The notes under the pieces are model-generated. The model was not told the origin of the DNA, searched no databases, and saw only the letters and a list, made by a program, of their open reading frames with translations. From positions 1,282,501 to 1,346,500 of the forward strand of contig CM065879.1 of assembly GCA_033439255.1 (NCBI GenBank): 64,000 bases of DNA. The letters are read 5' to 3'. Shown one piece after another: positions 19,677 through 52,635 of this stretch. Made by a program: the position numbers and the translations under genes. Origin of the DNA: Hericium rajendrae (Eukaryota; Basidiomycota; Agaricomycetes; Russulales; Hericiaceae). Numbering within the stretch: position 1 is the stretch's first letter; each line of letters begins with the position of its first letter.

Positions 19677-21299
19677 ATGACCGGCACACCTGGTGAGCAC
19701 CTCCTGAGCTAGATGCATAATACGAAGTCTTACGGGTTTTGGATGCAAAAGATCTCAGCATTCCGAGTTTGTTCGATGTGAAGGGCAAGACGGGTACGTA
19801 GCGCCATACCGATATGCCGGTGAAGATGTAGGGAACTCATTATTTTTGGGCGATTCAGCCGTTGTTACCGGCGGTGGCTCCGGCATCGGGGAGATGATTG
19901 CGACGGCGTTCGTCCAGAACGGCGTTAAGGTGTACATTGCGTCTCGAAAGGAGAAGCAGCTGAAGGAGGTGCGTTATATCCGCCGGAAGGCGACAGCTAA
20001 GTCTGCTAATGAATTTGAATGCGCCTGACAGGTTTCTGAGCGTCTGACTAAGATGGGACCAGGATCTTGTCACTACTTCGTCGCTGATATCAGCGTGAGT
20101 TGTATTTATTGGATTTCTACACAACAGTCGCTCACCATGTCGTACTTTCGGCTCGACACTGTTTTTAGTCCAAAGAGGGATGCGACAAGCTCGCAGATGC
20201 AGTCAAACAGAGAGAAAGCAAGATCCACATCCTAGTAAACAACTCCGGCATGTCATGGGGAGCGCCCTATGAAAAGTGCGTCTTGTCCGCGCATGATCGT
20301 AAGCGCATTGTCATATTAATACCACCCGTTTCAGCGTCCCGGAGAAGGAAGGTTGGGACCGAGTACTTGCGTTGAACGTGAAGAGTGTCTTCTATCGTAC
20401 GCCGTCTCACGCACATTACTATCACTCGCTGATGCCGTGACCACAGTCACTGTTGCGTACGTCCCGCGATAGCGGGCCTGTCCTCGTCTCCGCGCTCTTC
20501 TAATTTGGCTTGGACTGTAGCTTTACGGATCTGTTAGCGAAGGACTCCACGAACATAGATCCTGGACGCGTTATCAATGTTTCCTCCATTGCTGGAGTGT
20601 CTCCGGTCGCCCAAGGCAGCAAAGTCGCTGGCCCAAGCTCGGGCCTTTGGAGTTGTAAGTAGTCTTTGTTGTCGTCGATGTTGTTAATGCGATTGATTGC
20701 CATTGGTCTAGATCACACCAGCAAGGCTGCCGGTGCGTGGATCAATCATCTCCAAGTGACGTAGCGTCTCAAGGCCTCTTCAGTGAATCATTTAACTACA
20801 CAGCTGGCTGTGACCCTCGCCAAGAAGCGCATCACGTATGCCATGTCAATCTTCACGAAAGTAGTATGATTGACAGCTAGATCTTCCACATCAGCGTGAA
20901 CGCTATTCTCCCAGGGTCGGTCTTCCTGTGATTGTTTGTACAATTATTTCTCACTATCAATTCAACAGGATCTTCCCGTCGAAGATGACCGCATTCGGTT
21001 TTAAGCAGGCGGGCGGACAGGATCAGATGGCCGAAGGACATCCATGGGGTATGTTTCTTTAACTTGTCTACATCCAAGGGACTGAATATATCACTGTCTC
21101 AGGTCGCGTTGGGAGTGCCCGTGATATGGCTGGTGTAGGTATGTGTCCCAAGGCTGCCGTTGTATCCTAGTCTGTCGTGTTGACTTAGCGCTCGTTGCCA
21201 GTGCTCTTCCTTGTCAGCCCCGCCGGAAGCTACGTGACAGCGTCGCATATTGCCATAGACGGTGGCAGCCTTCACGCTCCGGGAAAGGCTTTCTTGTAG
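19677..21299 (+). CDS. Short-chain dehydrogenase/reductase (RhlG-like SDR)
   Basis: Fourteen exons: 19677-19692, 19728-19793, 19859-19968, 20032-20094, 20169-20275, 20335-20396, 20447-20456, 20521-20654, 20712-20732, 20784-20835, 20895-20915, 20969-21048, 21103-21138 and 21202-21299; 291 residues. The protein is a classical SDR: TGGGSGIG at 31-38 binds NAD(P)(H), NNSG follows the HILV strand, NVSSIAG carries the catalytic Ser, and YHTSK is the catalytic Tyr/Lys pair. VNAILPGIFPSKM and the final IDGGSLHAPGKAFL are typical of the subgroup annotated as rhamnolipid-type 3-oxoacyl reductases. It should reduce or oxidise a small carbonyl or hydroxyl substrate in the cytosol; the real substrate is unknown. 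Very small exons stand out (10, 16, 21 and 21 bases), and the frame closes only when they are all included. Confidence 0.87.
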
Positions 21300-21808: not shown

Positions 21809-22348
21809 ATGGCAGTCAATCCAAATCAGATTCCTCTAGCTGACGCCAACGCAGCGGGGCCGGTGGAAGAGTCCATATCGCCCATGGAAAGCAAATTCGC
21901 ATCATACCATCGAGCCAGAGCAGAGGCAGAGGCGCGCGGGGAGTTCCCGCCCCTGTCGAAACACCATGTGCCAGTGCCGATATACCTCTTCATGGCCGAC
22001 CCCGCCTCGAACGTAGGGCAGCCGCCTATAGAACGCCTCATCGAATTCTTGAGGTTGTCTCCTGTGCCCGATTACGTCGGCGTCGGCACACGTCGCGTCC
22101 AGACGCGCGCGAATGCGGTCGGGGACAAGAGGTACATTGAATGAACAGACAATCGGAAGCACAAGGAGTTTGGCGTGGCGTTATTGATCAGGGATGAGTG
22201 GCAGTGGGAGGTTTTGGACAGCGAAATGCCGAGAATGTTTCCGGGGTTTGTGCTGAAGTCGGGATTGCCCCTTCATATTTATAACGATATCAAGCCGGGA
22301 AAGCTTCTTGTCTGGGGCGGTGACATCGAAGGTGGCGAAGAGGCCTGA
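21809..22348 (+). pseudogene. Small tandem-family protein, copy 1, with in-frame TGA
   Basis: First of three tandem relatives (others at 22878-23417 and 24180-24752). The frame is 180 codons long from ATG to TGA, but codon 112 (22142-22144) is TGA. Beyond it the same frame continues with family features: FGVALLIRDEWQWEVL, RMFPGFVLKSGLP and GKLLVWGGDIEGGEEA. These match FRGFYVTSGM and GRILVWKDAKEIEG of copy 3. The N-terminal signature FASYHRARAEAEARGE, followed by VPIYLFMADP, is also shared. No known domain, signal peptide or membrane segment is visible. Most simply it is a recently disabled copy. A truncated 111-residue product, or read-through of TGA, is possible. No GT-AG intron of reasonable length removes the stop. 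Confidence 0.6.
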
Positions 22349-22877
22349 GCTTTGTGTATCCTCGACTATTTGTTAGGATGTCATTCCACACGCATGACTG
22401 ATGTAATATTCATTTACTTATTTTCCGTCGAACTTACTTGTACCTCTTATGTGGCGACGTCGTTGTACCCAAATCCAATGGAGCTTGCTCAGTTTCGTGC
22501 ATTCGTAACACCCTATTGAACGTTGGCGTTGATGGCCAAATGCATGTCACGGGCATCGCGGATATGAACAAACTTTGGTCAGTCTTTGGTCAGTCTCTGG
22601 TCAGTCTCCTTAATCGGAACTCGTGCGTGAATCGGTACGAAAGTTACATATTTCGATGAAGAGCGTGGAGGCGTTGGGATGGCCATCAGAAGATAGGCTA
22701 TAAAAGATCCGAGGCTCCGACTGAAAGCCTGCATATAAGAGAAAAGTCAATGTTCAGGTTCCGTCCACCTCATCACGGCGTTCTTCAATCTCAAATCCAC
22801 TGATAGGCTCCGAGGCAGTGCGCACATCGATATCGCGGTGCTCGCTAACTTACTTACCGCAATTGATACAGCCCCTC
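22349..22877. other. Intergenic between family copies 1 and 2
   Basis: Contains a direct triplet of GGTCAGTCT words around 22577-22605 and the TATA-bearing promoter block of copy 2. No gene recognised. Confidence 0.4.
22683..22712 (+). promoter_or_regulatory. TATA-type promoter block of family copy 2
   Basis: CCATCAGA, then TATAAAAGATCCGAGG, with the TATA box at about 22699, roughly 179 bases before the ATG. An equivalent block (CCATCAGATAAAAGTAAAAG then ATCCGGGG) lies at 23991-24017, about 176 bases before the ATG of copy 3. The promoter was therefore duplicated with the gene. Confidence 0.5.
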
Positions 22878-23417
22878 ATGAGCGAAAGCTCGACAGCGAC
22901 GCCTCCATCCGATGTTCTTCCTGAGGAGAAGCGTAAACCGTGGTCGATGGTGGAAAAGTTCGCGACATACTTTGAAATGAAGGCGCGAGGCGAATTGGAT
23001 AAGCCCGAACCCAAACCTGTTCGAGTGCCGGTGCATCTCTTCATGGGCAATTCCCAGGACGTGGAACGGCCGTCTTGAGAGGCCTTCGAGGAATTTTTGG
23101 GCTGCTCTTTGGAGTCAGGTGGCGCCGATCCCAGTGTATCGTTCGTCAAGACATATCAGGACACAGAGGGAGGCAAGACGTACCTCGTATATTCAAGCAA
23201 CTCCGACGATCGGCAGCCTGGAGTGTCGTATGTCATCAGCAAGCAGGAGCAACTGGAGGCATTGGAGAACAATTTGGGAAAGATGTTCCCCGGCTTTTAC
23301 GTGAAGCCGGGATTAGTTGCTTATCCTTCGGAGGACGAGTATTTCCGTCAGAGCGGGATGATTATGTTGTGGAATAGTGGGAAGGTCGAAGGGAAAGTAA
23401 TAAGAAGGTACTATTAG
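22878..23417 (+). pseudogene. Small tandem-family protein, copy 2, with in-frame TGA
   Basis: The frame from ATG 22878 to TAG 23417 is 180 codons, with a TGA at codon 67 (23076-23078). The frame is kept on both sides. Before it are MVEKFATYFEMKARGE and VPVHLFMGNSQDVERPS; after it come EAFEEFLGCSLESGG, VSYVISKQEQLEALENNLGK, MFPGFYVKPGL and MIMLWNSGKVEGK. All are collinear with the intact copy 3 (FLGCDTLEKGG, LVITKAEQLEALEKDLHK). The TGA lies where copy 3 has a Pro in QPSPMAIAKFLG. No domain is recognised. The reading frame downstream is undamaged and conservation is strong, so the stop is either very recent or tolerated. A TATA-like block lies upstream. Confidence 0.6.
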
Positions 23418-24179
23418 GTGGTAGAGTGCCCGAGTGGATTGCACTCCTCACCATTAATATTTAATGCGCTGTCCATGTCTGTCTTGTATATGTGACTGAA
23501 TTTTCCTTTCTATCGTGTTGTATATCCTTTCTATATGCTGCAACGATTCCGTGAGCTTACCTGAGAATGAGAGATGAAGTTCTGCGCCGACAATGAACGT
23601 TATTCTGGCTTCGGAGCGCATGAGAGTCACTGAACGCCGAGGAGAACCGCTGGTCATACGAGGTTGTACTTCCGCCGCGCATTCATTAACCTCGGCAATA
23701 TGCTGACAAAGCTCGGGCGATTGCTCGCTGAAGATGAACAATTTGGGACTAATCATGGAAGAAAGTGAAGAAAGTTACAGTCTCAGACGCGATATAGGAT
23801 GCCAGAAGGCAGGTATTGCCGGTACGGCGGGAGTAGAAGAGTCCATAAGCGTACGTCGGACATCGCGGGCATATAGTTACGTACCAACTTGCGGATCAGC
23901 GTGAATTAGCACACTTTTCATCGAAGGAGGTCGCCTGCGTATTCGTGCACGCAGGAGCCTGGATTGGAAGTGTGGAAGGCGCGAGGATAGCCCATCAGAT
24001 AAAAGTAAAAGATCCGGGGATTGGATGCGCGGCCTGTACATCAGATAGAAGTGAACACTTGCGTTCTGCTAATACGAGAGCTTACTCTCACCGTTTGCGG
24101 ACAGTATATCCTCATCGTGGTGCGCGCAATTATGGCAATGGCTTGACCATGCCGCTCACTCCAGCTCATACAGCCCGCC
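23418..24179. other. Intergenic between family copies 2 and 3
   Basis: Holds the 3' end of copy 2 and the duplicated promoter block of copy 3 at 23991-24017. A minus-strand frame at 23454-23756 (100 codons) has no family resemblance and may be chance. Confidence 0.4.
23991..24017 (+). promoter_or_regulatory. TATA-like promoter block of family copy 3
   Basis: CCATCAGATAAAAGTAAAAG followed by ATCCGGGG, matching the block upstream of copy 2 in sequence and in distance to the start codon (about 176 versus 179 bases). Confidence 0.45.
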
Positions 24180-24752
24180 ATGGCCGAAAGCCCGGCTTTG
24201 ACACCTTCGTCCGATGCCCCCGCTGAGAGGAAACGTACATGGACAATGGCGGACCAGTTCGCATCCTATCATGCAGCGAAAGCAGCTGCAAAGGCGCGAG
24301 GGGAGACATTTGAGGAACCCGGTCAGAAGCGCTTCCAGATGCCCATCCATCTCTTCATGACCGATCCTCAGGACGCGATGCTGGAACAACCGTCTCCCAT
24401 GGCCATTGCCAAGTTCTTAGGCTGCGACACTCTCGAGAAAGGCGGTACCAGCCCTATTGTACGATTCGTCCAGAAACGTCAGGATGCAGCAGGGAACAAG
24501 ACACACCTTGTTGAGTCAGATCACTTTGCAGACCGAGAGACTGGCATAGGGCTTGTCATCACCAAGGCGGAGCAGTTAGAAGCTTTGGAGAAAGACTTGC
24601 ATAAGGAATTCCGTGGTTTCTACGTCACTTCGGGGATGATTTACTATCCATCGCAGGCCTTGAAATGGGGAAGGATCCTGGTGTGGAAAGATGCCAAGGA
24701 AATCGAAGGGACAAAAGGCCGCAGCGCTGGTGGCGGTAAAGTACCCGAGTAG
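24180..24752 (+). CDS. Small tandem-family protein, copy 3 (intact)
   Basis: Single-exon frame of 190 residues, the only uninterrupted member of the family. The N-terminus is Ser/Pro-rich, followed by a charged helix (WTMADQFASYHAAKAAAKAR), then MPIHLFMTDPQDAMLEQPSP. The second half (about 85-175) reads like a compact alpha/beta domain: IVRFVQKRQDAAGNKTHLVE, GIGLVITKAEQLEALEKDL, FRGFYVTSGMIYYPS and GRILVWKDAKEIEG. There is no signal peptide, membrane segment, catalytic motif or cysteine pattern, so it is probably cytosolic. I do not recognise the family. The first ATG directly after the duplicated promoter block was chosen; it aligns with the starts of the other copies. Function unknown. Confidence 0.72.
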   Translation: MAESPALTPSSDAPAERKRTWTMADQFASYHAAKAAAKARGETFEEPGQKRFQMPIHLFMTDPQDAMLEQPSPMAIAKFLGCDTLEKGGTSPIVRFVQKRQDAAGNKTHLVESDHFADRETGIGLVITKAEQLEALEKDLHKEFRGFYVTSGMIYYPSQALKWGRILVWKDAKEIEGTKGRSAGGGKVPE

Positions 24753-25223
24753 AATTAATCTACTCACAGTATGCAGTCCATGTCTGTTTAACATACGTAA
24801 ATGAGTCGTGTTTTCCGTCGACATCGAATATCCTCTCTGTGAAGATGTTCCGGCGAAACTTGTGCCCCACTGACAGCATATAGAGTACACATGCGTGATG
24901 ACGGTGGTGAGGAAATGCAGCTGTTTTGAACGTCATAATGGCGGGGACGGCGGCGACACAGTCGTCGACGTCGCGGACGATGACGGCGACATGGACGCGC
25001 CGGCGGAGGATCGCGACGGGAAGGAAGGCGTGATTGGCTCGGGCGGGGAGATGGCATTCCCACGGTGCCTCCACAGGGCTAGATCCAGAGCTCGATATGG
25101 AGATGGAGTTGCTCGATGCGGGGGCAGCATCGCGCTCGACACCCACCGCCATTAGTCTTGCATGTCCGTCCCATCTAAGTATAAAGCCTCCCCGTTGCCC
25201 CGCCCTTGGATAACGCCTCCACC
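24753..25223. other. Intergenic upstream of the Zn2Cys6 factor
   Basis: GC-rich GA/GC-alternating sequence around 24940-25080 makes open frames on both strands, but none resembles a protein. A TATA-like TATAAAG lies near 25180, about 45 bases before the ATG at 25224. Confidence 0.4.
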
Positions 25224-28200
25224 ATGCGCGACGCCGAGGCAAAGGCTTCTGCCCCCGCCGTCAAGAACAGGGAGCAGGAGTGGAAGCGCGCCCGCGGCGC
25301 CATTGCCTGCGCCGAATGTCGCAGGTGAGTCCGGAGTCATCGGAGACGGGTGCGTCGTGCTCAGAAATCGTAGGCTCAAGCTGAAGTGCGACAAAACTGT
25401 CCCGTGCACGTCCTGCAAACGTCGGGGATGTGCTCCCATATGTCCCAACGGTGCGTCGGACTTCCGCTCGGTCCGTGGCTTGAATTGACGTTTCTGCAGG
25501 CAGCCTTATCACCGGGCAAGGCACTCGGCAAGTTATCTCCATGCCTATCCTCTGCGTAGTCTAATGGTCTTGCAGCTTCGTCCTCGCATCTACCGACCGT
25601 CTGCACCTCAAGATCTCCCAAATGTCCGACCGCATCCGCGTGCTCGAGGAAGCCCTCTCAGTCGCTCATCTTTCCGCGTCTCCGGGAGAGCAGCACCCGC
25701 TTCTCACCCGCGAACTTATGAAAATTAAGTCCATCATTGAGCTCCATGGCGCGGCAGAAGGTGAGGAGAGCGAGGGAAACCAGGGCGAAGACGAAGGCGG
25801 CGAGGATGCGGAGAGGCTCGATATCTTCGGGACACTCGCCGTAAGAGAGGATGGGGGCAGTATGTTTTATGGCCGATCGGCAGGACAAGAGGTTCGTCGT
25901 GTTTCTCAATCTCACTTCACACTCACCATTGATCCGCACTAGTCTCTTCTCCTCGTAAGTTGCCTCTGTTGTATATATGCGTTCCAAGCTAACCCGAGCA
26001 GACCGAGATCGACCCGCTGTCCATGTCCGACGCCGCTGCCGCCCTCCCTTCGCTCGACACATCCACCACAAGCACCCTCCCTGCCTCCATCGAGGCGCTC
26101 TCCGCTTCCCTCCCGCTCTCCGCGCCCGCCGCGACCACCACGCACACCCTTGCCGCGCTCGCCGCGCACCTCCCTCCATGGCCGCGCGCGAAGGCGCTCT
26201 GTGCACACTACCTCGCCCAGGCGCCGTGGTTCTTCGGCGCGGTCAAGGCGCGCCAGATCTGGGAGGAGCTCGTGCCCGCGTTCTACCCCGCACCAACGGA
26301 GAAGGCCGCGCCGCATGATCTCGCGCTACTGTTTATCGTGTTCTGCTTCGGTGCGCTCACAGACCCGGCGCTTCCGCCTGCGCCGCATAATCACGAGGCG
26401 GAGGAGTGGTACACACTTACGCGCGCGGCGCTCGCGGTCGAGCCCGTCATGGAACGCGCACCATCGGTGCGTGGACTTTTCTCTCTAAACGACTCCTCAT
26501 GTTCAAGAACTGATTGAATCTCTGATGTCTAAAGGTCAGCACAGTCCAGACGCTTGCGATGGTAGGTATCTATCAGGGCCTCGTCGCAGGCGAGGGCAGC
26601 ATCGAAGCGACATGGGCATGGATGGGCATGAGCACCAAGCTAGCACAGAGCGTGAGTACCCACGTGCTATCTCGCGTGCTTCGCGTTCTCACCATCGTGG
26701 TTCCCGCACGATTTTCAGATTGGCCTTCGTAAGCCCTCCATGCCCCGCTTTCGTAGCCCGCTCACGCTGATGGCGCAGATCGCGACTGTGCGCGCTGGAA
26801 GCTGCCGTCTGCAGAGGTGCAGAAGCGGCGTGCGCTATTCTGGGAACTGTTCATCACCGATTGCTGGCAGGTGCGTGTGCGTTCGTGAATTTGTTCTGTT
26901 TCGACTGATTGTATGCGTGTTGTATGGTTACCATCCCATTGAACGACTCTCCACATCAGAGCCTCGCCACTGGACGGCTTGCGACCTTCGCGGTACCGTT
27001 CATCGACTGCGAGCTGCCGCAAGACCAGGAGCAGACTATGGCTGCGGACGGCACGCCGCAGCCTTCATGTGTGTCCCCGGTCCTCCATTGTCTTTGAACG
27101 CGATAGCTGACTATATGCGCGCCAGTCCCGCATTGGAAAGCCCAGTTCGGCAAGACATGTGTCTCAGAGGTCGTCCGCGGGATCTTGACTGCGCGAGCGC
27201 CGAAGTACAGCGTGATCCTCGAACTTGACCGGCGCGTGCGCGACATGGAGCTCCCGCGCTACGCAACGGAACCTGCACCACGCGGCGCGGGTTTCGATGT
27301 CACGATGAGCTGTTACATGCCTGTCAATTACCGATGCTTGAGTGCGCCTTCCCTCGTCTTTCCGTATCTGTGTCTTTCTGACTATCTCCTGCATTGTGTT
27401 CCTCAACGCAGCGCTTGTCTACATCCACCGCGCGTTCTTTGCGCAGGGGTTATGCGACCAGCCAGCCGACCCGCTGAAGAGCAGCTACGCGCTTTCCGTG
27501 AGCGCGGGGTACCGCAGCGCATGCGAGCTGCTCGGCTCAGTGCGTGAGCAGTTCGCGTTTGCGCCGGAGCAGATTGCACGGTTTTGGGTGCTGTGGACGC
27601 ATGCATTTAGCTCGGCGGTGCGTGTGGCACGTCCTCCTGTTGTGCTGCAAAGCACGAGATTGATGGAGTGATTGTGTTGCAGGTGATGCTCGCGTTGGTG
27701 CCGGTGCGCGCGCCGAAGTCGAAGCTTGCGCATACTGCGTTGATGGAACTCAAAGGCGCTTGCGACCTGTTTGAGCAGGCGGCCGTGCATGGTGGGCGGG
27801 CGGTGAAGATGCTGGTACGTCCTAGTCTCTATGCTTTCCATCGTCTCTCATGGATGCTGACTCACGGTGTCCAGCCTGTTGTTCGTCGCCACCTCGAAAA
27901 GGCCACTCATAGTTTCCATGTCGCACGTACGCCGCTGCTCAAAGGGCCCGGCGCCGGCGACACCGAGTACTTCCCAGCCCCGGCTCGAGACGAGTTCTCC
28001 ATGTTCCAAGGCGTGACCCATACGGTGGCAACGAAGACGAAGGCACGCGCCCGGCCACCGGCGCTCAGTCCAAGTTCGAGCAGCGCTGGTGGGACTTCGG
28101 TCAGCGGTGGCGCGAGCTCAGGTAGTGCTAGTGAGCGCATGAGCGTCGGTACGAGCGGGTCGAGCGCCAGTAGCGTAGCGCCACCTGTTGCATATGGCCC

Positions 28201-46022: not shown

Positions 46023-47642
46023 ATGCATCAGGCTCTGCAGGTATCCGACATCATCGATATGATTGTCCAATGTCTCTCGCTACCACCAATCTCTGTCTAC
46101 ACTGACACATACGATGCAACCCACAACTCATATCGTGAGAGATTGATCAAGAGGAACGCTCTGCTCTCCTTATCATTGACTTCGAGGTCGATGTTAGAAC
46201 CGTGTCTTGATGCTTTATGGGGCTGCATGCTCTCTGCTCGACCTCTCTTTAATAACATTGTTTCTCCAGAGAAAAGAGCCAGACCCGAAGGGCGGAGCCG
46301 CCAGCCACATCATCAAGTTATGGTAAGTCGCCTGAACACCATCCTGCTGAATCCACGGTGACGTGGCAACGATATTATCCTGCAGGGTCTTTCTCGAATT
46401 TTGGAGAATGCAGATTGGACTCGATGCCATTATTATGCATCTCGAGTCAAGGGTCTTTGCATCGCTTTTGGCGATTTAGATGTGATCTTCGGCCGCGTAC
46501 TCTTCAGCCGGTCTTCCACGTGCCCAAACCCCCTTCTTCCCAATTTGCAATATCTCTATTGGGCTGACTACCGAAGCACTTCGTTAGCTTGCATGAGTCT
46601 GCTTGCAGGCCCGAATGTCACGTCTCTGATGCTAACCGTCATTGTCTGGCAGAAGAATTCTCGAGACTCTCTATACACCACACTTTTGCCTCTCCGAGAG
46701 GCTAGCCCACTCCTAGAAGACATGAAAATCGTTGATAGCCGCGAGCAGCACACTGGAAATACCGATTGGCAGCTTTCACTAATGCTTTCCGTGTTCTTGA
46801 ATGTCACCAGTTTGGAGTTCACAACTCATCCGTCAGGCGATACTCTAATATGCTTGTCAAAGATGCCTAACCTCCGGACCTTGAAAGGGAGGCTTTGTCG
46901 AGAGGATGATCCCATACTGGATAATACCGATCCGTTGGAATTCCCCTCGCTGCAGCATCTTGAGTGGGCGGTGTACAACCCGAGTGAAGCTCTGACTCTT
47001 CTCCTCCTCCTCCGCCCTCCCGACCGGATGCGCGAGCTCAAGACTCTCTCGCTCTGCTATGACAGTGTCATCACTATCACCGAGCTTAATGCCTTCCTCG
47101 ATACCCTCCTCGCCACTTGCTCGACGCAGACCCTGTCCTCGTTCATGCTAGATGCCGACGGCCCTGTTCTAGAGGAATCAGAAGGCATTCCCGTCCTGCA
47201 TCCTGCCTCATCAGACCTGCATCCCCTCTTCCAGTTCAGTCACATAGAGGAATTCCGTATCGGGGGCCTGCCCGTCCAGCTCGACGACGCTTTTGTGGCC
47301 GCGGTGGCCACGACATGGCCCCGGCTGTGCGTGCTACATCTGTACACGAGTATGCCGTTGATGTCTGCAATCACGCCCGCAGGGCTCCTGCCTCTCGCAA
47401 CAGGGAGTCGACGACTCGAAGACTTGGGCGTGAGCGTCGGCTCTTGGCCATGCCCTATTCTGCCACCGCCACATGGACATGCCAACATGAGGAGACGATA
47501 CGTTCCACTGTCAGTTCACGTCCACAACCCGGTCGTCGGGGACTCGATATCACGCGAGGATGGCATGCAGAGAGCTGCGAGGTTGCAGTCCTTATGGGAA
47601 ATATTCCCAAACGCCATCGACATCGAATATTACACCAGCTGA
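46023..47642 (+). CDS. F-box-type / leucine-rich-repeat-like protein
   Basis: Two exons, 46023-46322 and 46386-47642 (63-base GTAAGT...CAG intron, phase 0); 518 residues. The N-terminus MHQALQVSDIIDMIVQCLSL with LLSLSLTSRSMLEPCLDALW matches the F-box-like start common in basidiomycete expansions. Next come DWTRCHYYASRVKGL and many short leucine-rich stretches such as LPNLQYLYWADYRSTSLACM, NVTSLMLTV, MPNLRTLKG and FSHIEEFRIGGLPVQ. Such proteins are thought to be substrate adaptors of SCF ubiquitin ligases, binding Skp1 through the F-box and targets through the repeats; the target here is unknown. The first ATG gives the usual start of this class. These genes belong to large, fast-changing families in mushrooms, so its presence next to eroded sequence is not surprising. 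Confidence 0.78.
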
Positions 47643-48909: not shown

Positions 48910-51900
48910 ATGTGCATCGGCAACCACGCCGACGTTTCTGCTAACTACGTCAACGGCCAGCTCCGCGCCCTCTGGGAGAACGCTGAGTCCTGTGTCAAGA
49001 AACACGCCGTCGCTAACCAGAGGCCAACTCAGCGCGAGCTTGAGTATGGCTTCGCGTTGAGCAAGTTCTACTACGGTTTACTGTCGGAAACTCGCTCGAC
49101 GACGGACAGCCTCGCGTTCTATGCGTCCTTCGGCTGCCCTTCGATTGACTTTGTGTGTAATCACGAGGTCATCCTTACTCTCGAGCTCTTGGGCGGCCAC
49201 TACTATGTCGATACGAATAACGCGGCTGCTCGCGTCGATTTGTGCGTTTCGTTCTAAAGTTACACTATAATCTTGCTCAATGGCATCAATTTTAGGTCAC
49301 AGAGGCGCCATATCGAAAGGCAGAAGATTGCTTTCCGCATCCCGTTCTCGCCCCATGGCGTGGGCCACGTACATTGCGATGAAATCGGCAACGCTAAAGA
49401 GTACAACCTCGACTTCGTAGTCCTTGACACAAAAGGTACCTCATGGCTGCTCGTGCTAGACTATCATCTGACATGCCATGAACAGAGGCGACCTTCTGCG
49501 AGGAGCTCTACCACGCGCCCTCTGTCGTCTCCGGTCGTTCCCACAAGGTCACCGCTCAAGACACTTCTGCCCTCATATACTATCTACGCACGCATTACCT
49601 TGACCTTCTCAAGCGTGCCGGCCGTCATGTCTTCTATACCCTTCCCTTCTTCGACGACATCAAGGGCAACGAACTGATCGACTACTCGCTGGCTAGCAAC
49701 CCGAGCGGCGTCGATGTCCTCAAAATCACCGTCGCCCAGATGAACAAGTATCTGAAGGACATCTGGCTGCAGGCTGCGACTGAAGCTAACCATGGCCGCA
49801 TTACATACTTGGTCGAGCATCGTGCCACAGTAAAGACCGGGGATTTCCAGTTGGAACTGGCTCTGCGGGCTCCCGAGGTCCTGCCATTGTGTAGGCATGA
49901 GGTCGCTCTAACATTCGATATTGCATCACTAGGTATCTCTTCCCGCTACGTTTCAAAGTGAGTACTCCATTGTTTTGTTTGATGGTCACTTTTCATAACA
50001 TTTCCCTCAGCAACACACCATACGGCTTCAAGGATTGGAAGATCATCTTCCTCATTCACACTGATCTCGATCATTCAGAAAAGCGGAAACGTCTCAGAGT
50101 CAACGTCGCCAGTACGTGTTGTTGTTCCTGGACACTTTGTCCTGGCTCATTAATACGTCCCATAGCTGCCCACTACAGTAACGCTCTGTCCAGCACGCCA
50201 CACACGCTGGCTGACCAGACCCTGTTCGACCGCCTACAAGACGTGGTTATCGAGTACCTCCACGCTGCGTATCTCAAGCTCTTCGAAGACGTGCACAACG
50301 CACTCATCTATGACTCCACGTTCCATTTCGTCCTGCCCGCCGCGGAGGTCGAACCGATCACCGATGAGGGCTGCTGGACTGTCGGGGGATGCAAGCTTTC
50401 CGGCATCAACGGCCACGTCTGTTGGATGACCGCTATCGAGCAGATGCTGGGATTCCAGGGCACCCTGCCGTACGACTTTGTAACATCTGTGTCGCAGGGG
50501 TCGATCAATCGCCATCTTGCCGCACAATGGGACATTGCGACGCGCAAGGTCGGCGGCCGGTTGAGCGAGGCATACGCGTTGGCGCGATATATCTTCAGCT
50601 ACAACGGACAAACGCACTTCACGGCGTCGTTCGATGCTCCGAAGGTCCAGTTGGTATGCGAGCCCGGTCCACCGAAGGCCATTGTACATCTGCGCCTCAA
50701 GGAGGGTGTGTTCAAGACGCTGACGGCCAGCGGTGCATATGATGCGAGGTGAGTCTCATTAATTTTATGCTATACGTTCTCATTTCTGACCTGCCCATGC
50801 ATCATGCAGTGCCCTAGAATATAAGGTTGGGCAGTGGGAGGTCGCTTTTGAAGTCTCGCTGGAGCTACGCGACTGCTCGACGAACGCGGAGCTTCCTGAA
50901 TTTGTGGGTAAGCACTTCGGGCACGGTGACTACCGCAATTACAAGCAGCTTGTGTTGAATTTCTCAAGTGCGTCTTCTTGCCCTACTGCAACAACATCGC
51001 ATATACTCACCTCGACTACAGCCGCCAAGTTTGTGAAGATCGTCCCGACGCAGACTGTCAGCGCTGAAGAAGCATATACCCTCCAGTACACCCGCGAGAA
51101 GCGCGAGGCCCTCATTCACTTCCTCAAGGAGCGCTATCTCCCCGTCCTCACGGCCTCCGGGCATCATGTCCTGCACACCATCCCCGTCACCGTCGCCCAA
51201 GGCAACACAGACTCGCTTTCCCTGACCGCGCTCGACTTCCGCGTCACCCCCATTCCCTTCGCGCTGAGCGACAAGTTCCGCGACGGCCTCAACGGGCGGT
51301 ACGAACGCAACACGGTCCTCTTCCTCGGGATGACCCAGCACCGCCCCCTGCCACGGCCGCTCCCCGCGCTCGGGTTCTGGCTCACCGCGGGCTTCAGCCG
51401 CGAGATCCCCTCGGCGACGGCGGTCCTCTCGCGCCGCATCTTCCTCGACAGCAAGCTCGTTCCGCTGCTGTCCGCGATCAATCGCCAGACGACGATCGTG
51501 CCGTCGTCGCCGAGCGTCGAGCACGGCAAGTGGATCACGGACCTCGCGCAGTGGAACATGCACCCGCTCCGCCAGAATGAGGACTGCCGCTTCGAGGAGG
51601 TGACGCGCGCTGGCGCACACAATGCGCTCGACTTTGAGTGGGTGAATCGCGAGAACTGGAAGTACGAACGCGGATCGCCGAATCGCGCGGGCGGGTCGTG
51701 GAATATCGATTGTATGTCGTGCGACTGCGGGCTGATGCCTTTTAGGCTGACGGGGGATTGCAGGTCTCACGACGAACTCGTTGTCTGTGCCGACGGGCAC
51801 ACTGAGCGACACTTGTGTCCTAAAGCTTCATGGATCCGTCGTCCTCAAGTTCGACTCTACCGTCCACGGAGAGACTGCGAACCATTGGCAGTACGTCTTT

Positions 51901-52635
51901 CATTTTTCCCGTATGAGGACTTAAAAAACGCATCTTGTATCTTGTAGGAGCGAAGCCATCGCTCAATGGTCCACGACGATCACACTCGCCACTACCAGCA
52001 CCGGCATCACCGTCACCGCCACATCCGACGACATCGTGCCCCAGTTCAAAGACCACACCGCAGAGAAATACCGCCACGCACATTCGTCGGCGTACCACGT
52101 CGACGCCGTCGCGCAGCTGAAGCAGCACCTCCCGACCGTGAACATCGCGCCCATCGTCGCGGAGCTGCGCACCGCGCTCGAGGGCGTGTGGGCGCACCTC
52201 TTCGCGAGCGCGTCCGAGTGGCAGACCGACGCGCTGCAGGCGGGCGCGCTGTCCGCGCGCCTGCCGACGTTCACGCGCGGCGGCGACCTGCTGCTCGAGC
52301 TGCGCCCGTATGCGCTCGCGCAGGGCCTGTGGAAGGCACGCGAGGTCGTCGCAGTGACGGCGCCCGTGGTCGACTACACCATCCCGTCGCTGCCGCTGCC
52401 GAACGGAAACGGCGCTGCGAACGGGCACGTCGTCGCGGTCCAGACGACGACGAACGGGCGCCGCCTGTCGATCGACACCTGGGCGTCGGCGTCGGACACT
52501 CTGTCAGTTGGTTCGGCGTACGCGACGCCGCTCACATATGCGGAGAGTGCGAAGGTCAAAGGCGAGGGCATCATCGCCGTGAGCAGGAAGGATGCATATC
52601 GTGGGGGTCGCAGGGGCGGGGGTAGGATATATTAA
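48910..52635 (+). CDS. Large protein of unknown function (1096 residues)
   Basis: Nine exons join in one frame: 48910-49241, 49296-49435, 49486-49957, 50011-50111, 50166-50748, 50810-50967, 51022-51711, 51764-51890 and 51948-52635. The protein has no signal peptide, membrane segment or catalytic motif that I recognise. The middle looks like successive beta-rich modules alternating with helical parts, with similar phrases spaced along the chain: GDFQLELALRAPEVL, GQTHFTASFDAPKVQLVCEP and VGQWEVAFEVSLELRDCSTN. The last 200 residues include VAQLKQHLPTVNIAPIVAEL and a Gly/Arg end (GGRRGGGRIY). Several Trp-containing segments and one motif TVGGCKLSGINGHVCWMTAI suggest a folded protein rather than disorder. 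Introns are 50-58 bases with canonical ends. Its even codon use and intact frame over 3.7 kb argue for a real, maintained gene. Its function cannot be told from sequence alone. Confidence 0.82.

Follow-up and report, generated by a model that had tools for sequence, protein, structure and literature searches.

Why two of three neighbouring and otherwise open reading frames should each be interrupted by one in-frame TGA is the question raised by a locus of Hericium rajendrae. It lies within C2:1282501-1346500, the stretch of 64,000 nucleotides (nt) that was analyzed here and is called the window below, in an assembly of 46.77 Mb in 19 contigs. The locus consists of three genes on the forward strand: copy 1 (c1; 21809..22348, terminal stop TGA), whose frame is open except for a TGA at codon 112 (22142..22144); copy 2 (c2; 22878..23417, terminal stop TAG), with a TGA at codon 67 (23076..23078); and copy 3 (c3; 24180..24752, terminal stop TAG), a whole single-exon open reading frame (ORF) of 190 amino acids. 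The explanation that best fits the results is a recent and independent nonsense inactivation of two of the three tandem genes, fixed or segregating, to which we give a probability of about 0.72. Such a loss would be ordinary, and it is the default reading because no further machinery is needed for it.

The three copies are paralogues. A search of the whole genome with c3 as query (E ≤ 0.001) returned exactly three places, namely c3 itself, c2 (49% identity, E 5.5e-38) and c1 (35% identity, E 1e-18); across comparisons, protein identity was 45-49% for c3-c2 and 34-35% for c3-c1. Searches at E ≤ 10 with two of the four pieces representing c1 and c2 recovered the same three places, and an extra stretch on C8 matched by c1/c2 pieces at E 0.94 was taken as chance. 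Homology among the three copies is far beyond chance, and their family is seen at this single locus in this genome. The original prediction, made from the letters of the window, had described three collinear paralogues with stops at codons 112 and 67, and both the reading of the frames and the genome search confirmed it, coordinates included; the length of exactly 180 codons that it gave for c1 and c2 also holds, as each measures 540 nt when both of its stops, internal and terminal, are included.

Alignment of the three proteins required no frameshift. An unconstrained nucleotide alignment placed non-triplet gaps downstream of the TGAs, which sum to multiples of three (10 + 2 in c2, 4 + 29 in c1), and the claim that the frame continues intact beyond each stop was therefore borne out. 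A coding signature was detected as well, with third positions holding 86 of the 204 nucleotide differences between c2 and c3 (p 0.005). The motifs proposed as shared were recovered in part: FA(S/T)Y and FxGFxxxxG are present in all three copies, while the VPIxLFM strand reads in reality VPIYLFM, VPVHLFM and MPIHLFM across the copies, and (G/M)xxLVW fails in c2, where MLW stands.

The position of the stops bears directly on their origin. The two TGAs occupy different alignment columns, neither of which is conserved among the copies and neither of which requires a gap: the c1 stop, followed by ACA, shares a variable column with E in c3 and Y in c2, and the c2 stop, followed by GAG, shares one with P in c3 and I in c1. 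Since the columns differ, no single recoding site was inherited by both genes, and stops at different, non-conserved columns are what independent random nonsense changes would be expected to produce. The identity of the stops adds little: TGA accounts for 15-36% of all stops within reach of a single base change in these genes, the share varying with the mutation model, so that both stops would be TGA by chance in about 2-13% of cases, and the pattern of always TGA is weak.

Selection was measured by the NG86 ratio of nonsynonymous to synonymous differences (pN/pS) in the segments before and after each stop. Around the c2 stop, the c2-c3 ratio was 0.52 (limits 0.37-0.76) before and 0.50 (0.37-0.68) after, and around the c1 stop, the c1-c3 ratio was 0.57 before (0.43-0.74) as well as after (0.42-0.78), and thus constraint is similar on both sides. 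When residues were polarised by c1, those unique to c2 numbered 12 after the c2 stop and those unique to c3 numbered 13, which represents no excess in the broken copy; before the stop the counts were 12 for c2 and 5 for c3 (p 0.14). The comparison of substitutions before and after the TGA, which had been proposed as a check, therefore revealed that constraint persists beyond both stops, and it does not separate a young lesion from a rescue of the full-length product.

The lack of further damage is a stronger argument than the pN/pS tests. Neither c1 nor c2 contains a second stop or a frameshift. In simulations of neutral decay (800 runs per setting, with indels assumed to arise at 0.05 or 0.1 times the rate of substitutions), a copy stayed free of a second stop or frameshift with a probability of 0.03-0.13 at a distance of 0.05 substitutions per site; this fell to 0.003-0.06 at 0.075 and did not exceed 0.016 at 0.1, and distances of 0.05-0.1 substitutions per site are a small fraction of the synonymous divergence between c2 and c3. 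As neutral decay soon adds further lesions, either the stops are young relative to the duplications, or they are tolerated and the frame is still used. Compared with an intact homologue, c1 and c2 thus display the in-frame stop of a nonsense pseudogene, and neither relaxed constraint nor further lesions are found after it; this is expected if the lesion is young, yet it leaves the label of pseudogene unproven. Nonsense pseudogenes among tandem duplicates are a known general kind, in which a lone in-frame stop lies in an otherwise intact homologous frame next to an intact copy, as it does here. The present locus differs in that two neighbours are affected at once, both by TGA.

According to this explanation, a fast-evolving family would have arisen at this locus through two tandem duplications, with c1 probably splitting off first and c2 and c3 afterwards, as the identities suggest. 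All three copies would have been under purifying selection during most of their history, and c1 and c2 would then each have acquired one nonsense change, recent relative to the duplications. Full-length protein would thereafter come from c3 only, and the truncated products of c1 and c2, of 111 and 66 residues, would be without the conserved C-terminal half and presumably without function. These nonsense alleles may be fixed or may still be segregating.

Several results weigh against recent nonsense inactivation. The pN/pS ratio of the c1-c2 pair was higher than those against c3, at 0.72 before and 0.68 after the c1 stop, and at 0.64 before and 0.75 (0.56-1.00) after the c2 stop; these ratios of 0.64-0.75 have upper limits of 0.87-1.00, and they are raised before the stops too, with no clear step. 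Synonymous divergence (dS) was about 1.05-1.98 by segment for c2-c3 and ranged from about 1.05 to infinite over all pairs and segments, and because synonymous sites are near saturation, the selection tests are low in power. The similar constraint downstream of the stops is equally expected from rescue by decoding. In addition, the simulated ratios of stops to frameshifts (at d = 0.01) gave a chance of about 0.12-0.23 that both first lesions were nonsense changes, and the joint chance that both were nonsense and both TGA is about 0.003-0.03, a post hoc figure that depends on the assumed indel rate. The original prediction had called the independent loss of two neighbours through single stops, always TGA, unusual; two events are involved, and their shared TGA identity has a chance of about 2-13%. 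This low joint chance is the sole reason to keep a small probability for the idea that UGA was the only stop tolerated, in which basal read-through, or some other correction, leaves enough full-length c1 and c2 product to keep the downstream frame under selection. We consider this improbable; in the same idea, genes of this sort would persist for long as leaky-UGA alleles within a young tandem family, without having the UGA-CUA motif.

Error in assembly or base calling, by which one or both TGAs would be absent from the real genome, deserves consideration at this point, since the rest of each frame is intact, single-base changes are typical of such errors, and one assembly only is concerned. 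The assembly is contiguous, however, and two independent errors that both create an in-frame stop in adjacent genes would be a rare coincidence, and hence we regard error, too, as improbable.

The intact N-terminal portions raise the alternative that the short products are themselves functional, c1 and c2 encoding N-terminal proteins in which the helix and the LFM strand are retained, with their C-terminal halves decaying. Both stops indeed lie 3' of the conserved FA(S/T)Y and LFM segments, and matched patches occur upstream of c2 and c3, one being a TATA-like stretch some 175 nt before the start codon and the other the bases directly preceding that codon. The putative element of c2 (22701..22714, forward strand, about 177 nt before its ATG) is near-identical in the upstream alignment to its c3 counterpart (24006..24019, forward strand, about 174 nt before the ATG); overall, the upstream regions of c2 and c3 are just 50% identical, as compared to 42-49% in three shuffled controls. 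Against functional short products, the N-terminal parts bear no extra constraint relative to c3, pN/pS being equal before and after the stop, and the two proteins would differ greatly in length. We judge this alternative unlikely.

Read-through, one of the possibilities in the original prediction, would mean that ribosomes continue through the UGA often enough to supply full-length c1 and c2 protein. In work on Ustilago maydis (PMC4207609), the fungal read-through motif is described as UGA followed by CU(A), and reporters with CTA after the stop gave more read-through at UGA than at UAA or UAG. The frame past each stop, intact and as constrained relative to c3 as the frame before it, would suit such a mechanism. 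The contexts found here are UGA-ACA (c1) and UGA-GAG (c2), however, and not UGA-CU(A); the position of the stop is not conserved between the two paralogues, and the frame ends of all three copies are without a peroxisomal SKL-like signal. The U. maydis Tpi1, Art1 and Rpe1 isoforms described in the same source are thus similar in having a UGA within a longer fungal frame, and differ from c1 and c2, in which the stop interrupts the conserved region midway and is followed by ACA or GAG, and whose frames end without such a signal.

RNA folding and the selenocysteine machinery likewise gave no support to decoding. The 100 nt downstream of the stops folded unremarkably (z -0.82 and +1.17). A low value for the region of the c2 stop (z -2.29), one of ten stretches, was rejected as evidence; in a sliding scan the lowest value at the c2 stop was z -2.01 and another c2 stretch reached -2.86, so that the c2 stop is not exceptional. 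Segments spanning the c1 stop gave z values of -0.45 to +1.75, and neither the folding of the stop regions nor the scan revealed an RNA structure common to both stops. The tRNA for selenocysteine (RF01852) was not found in the genome, with 53 of 5103 candidates scored; each of the 14 control genomes, all of them prokaryotes, yielded a signal with this search. Positive support for recoding of the stops is lacking, and read-through at a useful rate is accordingly very unlikely.

A further possibility, which had not been named before, is that adenosine-to-inosine (A-to-I) editing of the mRNA turns the premature stop into tryptophan in some tissue, as in Fusarium. According to a review (PMC11156358), 70 genes of Fusarium graminearum besides PUK1 require correction of a premature stop, and low-level A-to-I(G) changes, among others, are reported in a study of the basidiomycete Coprinopsis cinerea (PMC10532568). 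At c2, a small hairpin is predicted (23058-23098) whose UUGA loop contains the TGA. Fungal A-to-I editing, however, strongly prefers U at position -1 and converts UAG to UGG, while in UGA the A is preceded by G; no comparable hairpin is present at the c1 stop, and neither stop column holds tryptophan in any other copy. The combination of UAG, U at -1 and a hairpin loop is therefore absent, the stops being UGA with G at -1 and the hairpin occurring at c2 only. According to PMC11156358, the basidiomycetes reported to edit (Ganoderma lucidum, Fomitopsis, Polyporales) lack A-to-I editing on closer analysis, and another review (PMC7306014) describes stop correction as unreported for basidiomycetes. 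PUK1 and the other corrected Fusarium genes, in the accounts of these two reviews, resemble c1 and c2 as pseudogene-looking ORFs whose frame continues past the stop, and differ in having UAG with U at -1 in the sexual tissue of an ascomycete, as against UGA in a basidiomycete genome. Editing is the least probable of the explanations weighed here.

Unrecognised introns that excise the stops were also considered, because the genome is intron-rich and in-frame GT-AG pairs span both TGAs. None of the in-frame pairs that span a stop at a length of 30-140 nt has a GTRNGY donor, so that neither TGA is covered by a canonical donor with an in-frame acceptor. Excision would moreover delete segments that align with c3, several of the pairs taking out conserved ones, and for c2 several remove VPVHLFM. 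The base directly 5' of the TGA is A in one copy and T in the other; the G that a GTGAG donor would have there is missing, and without it the two TGAs are not stops of the splice-donor type that was encountered in the BTB family of this genome.

In that family, 12 of 86 matches contain a stop, 11 of them exactly one (4 TGA, 3 TAG and 4 TAA) and the remaining one two TAG. For nine of the 11 single-stop matches examined (L032-L036 and L039-L042), the stop falls close to where the match ends, and its context resembles a splice donor (GTGAG, GTAAG or GTAGG); in seven of these nine a GTRNGY donor with a paired acceptor spans the stop (in L034 through another donor), with none for L033 and L035. In L038 the stop coincides with the first matched residue. 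The match L037 (C7:911073-911375, in the region C7:910773-911675) has a TAG at match residue 36, in the middle of the domain, and the domain match goes on downstream; in this it is like c1 and c2, and it is unlike them in the identity of the stop, in the resemblance of its context to a donor (GTAGGC), to which no acceptor could be paired, and in being one of 86 family matches. At most a few of the BTB matches are truly interrupted, and these are too few for a test of TGA against other stops. Donor-like lone stops are a trap when in-frame stops are counted in intron-rich genomes. Taken together, the donor and alignment results make introns over the c1 and c2 stops highly improbable.

No wider rate of in-frame stops was drawn from this genome: in a self-comparison of 264 kb around the locus, the stops fell mostly in overlapping or opposite-strand frames of uncertain coding status, and in the fungal kinase family introns stood in the way of such a count. 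That family, the fungal-type kinases (PF17667), gave 127 matches counted exon by exon, with large clusters on C4, C7 and C2.

The explanation of the c1 and c2 stops as young nonsense lesions is thus the one retained; what the encoded protein does is not indicated by family searches. The c3 product looks soluble (pI 7.0, grand average of hydropathy -0.55, maximal 19-residue hydropathy 0.48). No match was obtained for five queries, c3 whole and c1 and c2 in two pieces each, against Pfam, or for c3 alone against NCBIfam and the sequences of the PDB; c3 gave no match among phages and plasmids and nothing better than E 0.43 in PHROGs, and of 24 stretches in a prokaryote collection that fit a pattern, none was confirmed as a relative. 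A profile of five sequences (c3 and the four pieces) searched against the PDB gave a cytochrome P450 at E 0.12 and a designed protein at E 0.79, both taken as chance. A match of c3 residues 19-63 to a viral contig (L011), whose E of 2e-4 refers to the candidate stretch alone, was dismissed as short and due to chance, as it contains the 8-residue query pattern TWTMADQF, an apparent cluster of phage structural genes surrounds it, and c1 and c2 gave nothing better than E 0.78 there. In the literature, where papers are not searchable by sequence, none was recognised as dealing with the family of this trio.

Genomic context analysis revealed a short-chain dehydrogenase-like exon on the 5' side of the trio (19846-20028; PF00106, E 5.2e-8) and, on the 3' side, an ORF (25162-25488) with a Zn2Cys6 match that is weak and below the cut-off (E 0.086). 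The spacers between the copies have no match in the genome except themselves. Elsewhere in the window, the neighbouring ORFs 49482-49958, 49901-50749 and 50790-51944 apparently form one multi-exon gene; the second and third of them have no Pfam match. On the opposite strand, some 21-30 kb further downstream (C2:1355512-1364631), lie two more copies that are 42-60% identical by segment. A 426-residue ORF without a Pfam match (46362-47639) has a relative of 50% identity 37 kb downstream (C2:1367419-1368675), which in turn has one of 52% identity 57 kb further (C2:1425707-1426960). DUF6533 has 13 matches in the genome; with the 127 matches to fungal-type kinases and the richness in introns, this agrees with a basidiomycete, the group to which these families point.

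Recent pseudogenisation, among the possibilities raised by the original prediction, fits the data best, given equal constraint relative to c3, the lack of a second lesion and unshared stop sites at variable columns; read-through, raised beside it, found no positive support in the 3' context, in shared RNA structure or in the search for a selenocysteine tRNA. If the stops are ordinary, the locus would represent a small case of gene birth and death within a tandem family of a fungus, and it illustrates that, where a lone TGA stands in an otherwise clean frame, a young lesion is indicated as readily as recoding. If the tolerance of a leaky UGA were true instead, fungal nonsense alleles could stay under selection without the known read-through motif.

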